In this document: positions 29,265 to 58,671 of the stretch, in pieces
Numbering within the stretch: the stretch's first letter is position 1
Layout: the number at the start of each line of letters is the position of its first letter
Source of the DNA: Soonwooa buanensis
Lineage (GTDB): Bacteria; Bacteroidota; Bacteroidia; Flavobacteriales; Weeksellaceae
Direction: 5' to 3'
Assembly: GCF_900167905.1 (NCBI RefSeq)
Contig: NZ_FUYZ01000003.1
Coordinates: 1-64,000, forward strand
DNA: 64,000 nt
Notes under the pieces: generated by a model
Databases searched by the model: none
Told to the model about the DNA's origin: nothing
The model's input: only the letters and a program-made list of their open reading frames with translations
Program-made: the position numbers and the translations under genes

Positions 29265-29283
29265 TTTACGGTTAGTAGTCTCT

Positions 29284-29425
29284 GTGAGGGCGAAGCGCAT
29301 TGTTGGAGCTCTTTATTGTGGTGGCTGAGCGGAGCCGAAGCCTCCACAAGAAAAGCGACTGCGCGTAGACCGACCCGCTTGTTTTTGTAAGGCTTTAGCA
29401 TTGGCAAAACAAAAGGGGCACAGCC
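29284..29425. repeat. Intergenic inverted-repeat element, copy A
   Basis: Read on the minus strand, 29387-29284 is about 95% identical (five mismatches seen by eye over about 104 bases) to 58513-58616, so it is the same element in opposite orientation. The core includes CGGGTCGGTCTACGCGCAGT, an imperfect hairpin built from GTGGAGGCTTCGG and AGCCACCACAA, and GAGCTCCAACAATGCGC. The flank up to 29425 (GGCACAGCC region) also resembles the start of copy B. It occupies the gap before prfA; no ORF is credible. Confidence 0.85.
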
Positions 29426-58440: not shown

Positions 58441-58616
58441 GGGCGTGCCCCTTTGTTTTCCCTTGGCTAAAACCTCATAGGTTTTCAAAAAACCTATGAG
58501 GTTTCCCAGCCGCCAAAACAAGCGGGTCGGTCTACGCGCAGTCGCTTTTGTTGTGGTGGCTTCGACTCCGCTCAGCCACCACAACAAAGAGCTCCAACAA
58601 TGCGCTTCGCCCTCAC
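58441..58616. repeat. Intergenic inverted-repeat element, copy B with nested palindrome
   Basis: 58513-58616 is about 95% identical to the reverse complement of 29284-29387. It contains an 11-bp or longer stem (TTGTGGTGGCT/AGCCACCACAA around TCGACTCCGCTC). The left part starts GGGCGTGCCCCTTTGTTTTC like copy A's outer end, and is interrupted by a hairpin, ACCTCATAGGTTTT/AAAACCTATGAGGT at 58469-58503, that copy A lacks. It fills the gap between converging bcp and GNAT genes; no ORF is credible. Confidence 0.85.
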
Positions 58617-58671
58617 GCAGATTCGGCGTTCTAAGAAAATTTTGAAACAGTAGAATTTGTTTTAATAAAAA

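Follow-up and report, generated by a model that had tools for sequence, protein, structure and literature searches.

Two inverted copies of a modular two-hairpin repeat, related to Flavo-1, in Soonwooa buanensis

The window, a stretch of 64,000 nucleotides from the Soonwooa buanensis genome, holds a single long inverted repeat pair, recovered by a repeat search at 29279-29385 and 58515-58621 (107 nt, 94% complementary). BLAST aligns the cores of the two copies, called A and B, at 96% over 102 nt, with about four mismatches and two more in the outer stem, and for a 22-nt piece of this core the number of matches expected by chance is 0. The first-pass annotation had described an inverted pair of about 104 bp with some five mismatches, and these searches bear it out. 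Each copy is longer than that 104-bp core, which spans block A, the first hairpin (hp1) and block B; the match had appeared as the core only because the second hairpin (hp2) differs between the copies (41 nt in copy A, 75 nt in copy B) and hides the remainder. The outer end of copy A had been placed correctly, at about 29425, whereas copy B continues to 58441, an end that had gone unseen.

Copy A (29282-29425, forward strand) lies at prfA, upstream of the promoter box. It has the A-hp1-B-hp2-C anatomy common to 20 or more copies, is matched by the covariance model and has an ortholog at the same place in a congener (L083). In its block A (29282-29311, delimited by alignment), the 5' strand of the outer stem P0, CTGTG (29282-29286), is followed by AGGGCGAA, the 5' strand of the core stem P1, GCGCA (29295-29299), and TTGTTGGAGCTC. 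The hypervariable hp1 (29312-29353) contains the palindrome GGTGGCTGAGCGGAGCCGAAGCC, and block B (29354-29374, again by alignment) comprises AGCGAC, the P1 3' strand TGCGC (29360-29364) and GTAGACCGAC. After hp2 (29375-29415), block C (29416-29425) supplies the P0 3' strand CACAG (29419-29423), which pairs with 29282-29286; relative to the GCGTG/CACGC of the family, this outer stem carries two compensatory changes.

Copy B (58441-58618, reverse strand), also with a congener ortholog (L061), retains P0 as GCGTG (58618-58614) and CACGC (58447-58443). On the same strand lie its block A (58589-58618), hp1 (58547-58588), block B (58526-58546), hp2 (58451-58525) and block C (58442-58450). Its hp1 is a perfect 15-bp stem, and two positions are left unpaired in that of copy A, in agreement with the hairpin differences described in the first pass. 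A perfect palindrome, AAACCTCATAGGTTTT...AAAACCTATGAGGTTT, is nested in the hp2 of copy B at 58470-58504; similar pieces occur in the hp2 of two other copies (L013, L077).

A dispersed family with a closed fold

Comparison of 13 genome copies yields a common plan of block A (GCGTGAGGGCGAAGCGCATTGTTGGAGCTC), hp1, block B (AGCGACTGCGCGTAGACCGAC), hp2 and block C (GGGCACGCCCAAA). The architecture of what we call the A/B family is thus that of an outer stem P0 (GCGTG/CACGC), a core stem P1, the hypervariable hp1, the variable hp2 and a closing strand, in a unit that spans 95-180 nt (144 in copy A, 178 in copy B) and combines three conserved blocks with two separate hairpins. A covariance-model search finds about 15 copies in the S. 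buanensis genome (G000) and 13 in its congener (G001), so the multi-copy, intergenic and structured family proposed from two copies is real. In another genus belonging to the same taxonomic family, g2, two genomes have 15 and 3 copies, and a dozen other genera of that family have one to three; outside it, there is one weak match only. An exact-pattern search returned matches in Epilithonimonas, Chryseobacterium and Riemerella, and the phage, plasmid and viral collections scanned contained no copy.

The copies are intergenic, and their orientation to neighbouring genes is mixed (17 --, 14 +-, 9 -+ and 9 ++). That they might belong to a fragment of a known gene, a possibility raised in the first pass, is ruled out, no coding frame running across them on either strand except chance short ORFs. 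A role as terminators is likewise ruled out, since a U-tract is lacking and divergent genes flank 9 of the 49 copies. On the G001 chromosome, 35-38 of 55 block A-to-C strands of the A/B family and Flavo-1 lie on the lagging side (p 0.006-0.06), a weak bias that is confounded with gene direction and varies in count and p with the origin chosen. In Riemerella anatipestifer, copies L034, L036, L038 and L041 immediately follow the 5S gene in several rRNA operons; their flanks are nearly identical and their hp2 sequences differ.

The closed fold formed by P0, P1, hp1 and hp2 is maintained by Watson-Crick swaps. When 20 copies drawn from several species are aligned without gaps and with the variable loops cut to equal length, standard pairs make up 94.4% of the positions in P0, P1, the 3-bp stem beside hp1, hp1 and hp2, against 77.9% in shuffled alignments. 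The covariation score is 0.416 (0.102 when shuffled), 14 pairs have changed on both sides, and no one-sided change occurs in P0, P1 or hp1. Among 45 copies, P1 exists as eight duplex types (GCGCA, GGGCA, GTGCA, GCACA, AGGCA, ATGCA, AGCCA and GGCAA), each paired with its exact complement, 224 of the 225 P1 pairs being Watson-Crick. For P0 and P1 combined, 443 of 450 pairs are Watson-Crick and 3 are G-U; tRNAs compared over the same loci have G-U at 22 of 300 pairs (7%). Predicted folding energies as single-stranded DNA are -53 kcal/mol for copy B (z -8.3) and -28 kcal/mol for copy A (z -2.2). The Watson-Crick-only pattern shows either constraint or arm-to-arm copying and does not by itself identify the active molecule. 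Strict covariation alone is no proof of a functional RNA, as arms copied from each other would mimic the signal.

Flavo-1 and other flavours

Among the unexplained "RNA" families of flavobacteria, Flavo-1 is one of the more numerous. It corresponds to Rfam RF01705 (Weinberg et al. 2010, PMC2864571), which Rfam classes as sRNA. The window copies have no match to RF01705 at its gathering score of 42 bits, nor to any other Rfam model, and copies L001, L005, L007, L009 and L010 have none to Rfam Flavo-1 at E<=5. Two weak DNA matches of the A/B-family search (L015, L017) are themselves Flavo-1, which numbers about 58 copies in G000, 38-42 in G001, 5 in G002, 14 in G036 and, in other genomes, up to at least 94. 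Its closing strands are TAGC ... GCTCC, with CCCG/CGGG and a variable hp1 as further elements, and its 2-bp core duplex takes the forms GC/GC, GT/AC, AC/GT and AT/AT, Watson-Crick in 78 of 78 pairs. The RF01705 model lacks the outer stem P0 and hp2 because it stops before the closing strand GCTCC; the missing outer stem could be added to it.

Between the two families stand intermediate forms. L125 is a hybrid in which a Flavo-1 core (66.9 bits) lies within the A/B-family ends GCGTGAGGG...GGGACACGCCC, and it is also matched by the A/B-family covariance model (E 0.003). A further flavour, type IV (L110, L166), combines an A/B-family outer stem with a core whose Flavo-1 score is 32 bits. L014 presents a third flavour (GCGCTCCGGATTGAACGGC...AAAGCGCC), and within about 300 bp on the left flank of L084 lies another element-like flavour.

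Insertion, exchange and turnover in place

The divergent rbfA/mce junction offers filled and empty versions of one site. G000, G001, G005 and G035 all have an element there, identically placed and oriented, with the same P1 and all arms different; that of G007 has a different core. Filled in three genera, the junction is empty in four others (G012, G013, G021 and G002), where rbfA and mce are adjacent with 56-74 nt between the homologous parts. G009 has a Flavo-1 copy just upstream of mce. The start codons of the two divergent genes lie on either side of the element, which does not include the rbfA promoter box, and its flanks are too diverged for a target duplication to be called. As an empty site the prfA junction is uninformative, since other genera have a different gene upstream.

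Duplication of the exact unit is seen in the type-IV flavour. Two G000 copies of 156 nt are 99% identical and have unrelated flanks, which sets the ends of the element at TTTGCGTGAG...CACGCCCAAA; no target duplication was seen at this pair. Together with the filled and empty rbfA/mce sites, this recent exact-length duplication in a sister flavour supports the mobility proposed in the first pass. The two copies (L166, G000:C13:97500-105500) are in direct orientation and bracket about 6 kb. The bracketed segment carries genes for a secreted protein and an AraC-type regulator, and the congener has one element at the junction.

Some sites that carry the A/B family in one species are occupied in another by Flavo-1, type IV or a block C remnant. 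At several of these exchanged sites the neighbouring gene on the far side is different as well, which places copies at points of rearrangement. Synteny is broken at about 5-7 of the 15 junctions that carry an element. In a control stretch of 19 kb it is broken at 3 of about 19 junctions between genes, and the excess is suggestive only.

Within persisting loci, the interior is replaced while the locus and its P0 remain. Eight G000 copies, both window copies included, have a G001 ortholog, with flanks 77-84% identical. At these eight loci hp1 is no more alike between orthologs (identity 0.605) than between non-orthologs (0.605), and orthologous hp1 arms have undergone double-sided swaps at about 30 of 64 positions with complementarity kept. 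Copies A and B are 93.5% identical over block A-hp1-block B, against only 84% between either copy and its congener ortholog; the window copies, closer to each other than to their orthologs, have therefore been homogenised. Since copy A retains its locus-specific P0, CTGTG/CACAG, the homogenised tract must lie inside P0. Paralogs in general usually match through block A-hp1-block B and differ in hp2. Recent transposition as the source of the likeness between A and B is ruled out, both sites being occupied in the congener.

Nature of the element and known systems

On our preferred reading, to which we give about an even chance, the A/B repeat is an old, slow-moving, non-autonomous dispersed element of folded DNA, a sister of Flavo-1 homogenised by conversion or replacement. 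Replication would expose its active form, a folded single strand of DNA or a cruciform. Template switching could re-copy one arm from the other, leaving arms renewed yet complementary, and ectopic conversion between copies may homogenise the interiors. A putative enzyme reading the P0/P1 fold would occasionally move whole units or swap flavours. Counted against this folded-DNA reading are the finding of no enzyme, target duplication or excision product and the slightness of the replication-strand bias. Long persistence at some sites, such as rbfA/mce in three genera, could mean that the element has a host function.

A structured non-coding RNA family, acting as sRNA or within UTRs and spread by ordinary duplication, would account for the strong predicted RNA fold (z -6.6), the covarying stems and the sRNA listing of its relative Flavo-1. 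Against it, G-U pairs are almost absent from the A/B family and the Flavo-1 core, at a rate well below that of tRNAs, copies face their neighbours in either orientation, and the elements at rbfA/mce and prfA lie outside and upstream of the respective promoter boxes. Flavo-1 matches in F. psychrophilum are moreover sense or antisense to transcribed regions, with many copies silent (PMC9723704). The scarcity of wobble pairs, the mixed orientation, the prfA position and these transcript data favour a DNA element, although they are no proof of one, and we consider the RNA explanation unlikely. A classical MITE, derived from a DDE insertion sequence by internal deletion and mobilised through its terminal inverted repeats, fits the exact-unit duplication, the empty sites and the ends, which form short, imperfect inverted repeats (TTTGCGTG vs TTTGGGCGTG). 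This part of the MITE-like assignment made in the first pass stands; the type-IV pair shows no target duplication, a covarying P1 flanked by variable hairpins is unexpected for a MITE, and the collections scanned, of phages, plasmids and viruses, yielded no parent IS with such ends. We hold a MITE to be improbable.

The first-pass annotation had also likened the repeats to REPs, which are palindromes of 20-40 bp with a GTAG or CGTC tag and would here be moved by a RAYT/Y1 transposase. Palindromes and intergenic position agree with this, Y1_Tnp genes are present in G000, G001 and many relatives, and the palindromes inside hp1 could be REPs in their own right. The units are unlike REPs in size and tag, ending in GCGTG...CACGC, and the two Y1_Tnp genes of G000 sit within the car and trp operons, with no copy nearby. 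The complete genome G002 (3 A/B copies and 5 Flavo-1) and G036 (14 Flavo-1) have no Y1_Tnp; the gene is not co-distributed with the repeats, which speaks against RAYT as the partner; we consider a REP-like element decidedly improbable. The two genes (L042, G000:C29:378232; L043, C11:296688) sit between carA/carB and trpF/trpB, with small palindromes behind the former. Finally, the copies might be folded recombination sites whose single strands are read by a tyrosine recombinase, like integron attC, flavour swaps and island boundaries being its products. The combination of conserved stem ends and a terminal hairpin free in sequence recalls attC logic, different flavours occupy the same sites, and two direct type-IV copies enclose the 6-kb segment. 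However, attC sites have R/L box pairs (GTTRRRY) and form cassette arrays, whereas the ends here are GCGTG/CACGC, the copies are dispersed singly and no recombinase is linked to them; we regard this as a highly improbable origin.

Set beside known systems, the A/B family shares with REP/REPIN elements and their RAYT transposases palindromes that are scattered between genes and can fold as single-stranded DNA, and differs from them in its length, its three conserved blocks, its multibranch fold and the lack of a neighbouring or co-distributed Y1_Tnp. Like bacterial MITEs of the ERIC, RUP and Correia type, it is short, non-coding and dispersed, with short terminal inverted repeats; the differences are that no target duplication was seen, that it conserves an internal core structure and that it has its arms renewed in place. 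With integron attC it has in common a structure that is kept while the hairpin sequence is free, and single-strand recognition is plausible in both; lacking attC boxes, arrays and a linked integrase, it bears a resemblance only.

Flavo-1 likewise has an outer closing stem, a short strictly Watson-Crick core duplex, a hypervariable hp1 and a variable spacer or hp2 ahead of the closing strand, and is intergenic and present in many copies in the same genomes, the hybrid L125 being scored by both models. The A/B family differs in its core and outer sequences, its far fewer copies and its narrower range, and is, in Chryseobacterium-like bacteria, an undescribed sibling of Flavo-1 within a superfamily of modular two-hairpin elements. 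It is possible, if doubtful, that Flavo-1 and its siblings are not RNAs at all and form one superfamily of folded DNA, in which cores are exchangeable, arms are continually recopied from each other and interiors are swapped between loci; a putative fold-reading enzyme would move its members. The sibling, the hybrid, the empty sites and the near absence of wobble pairs make the choice between RNA and DNA element directly testable.
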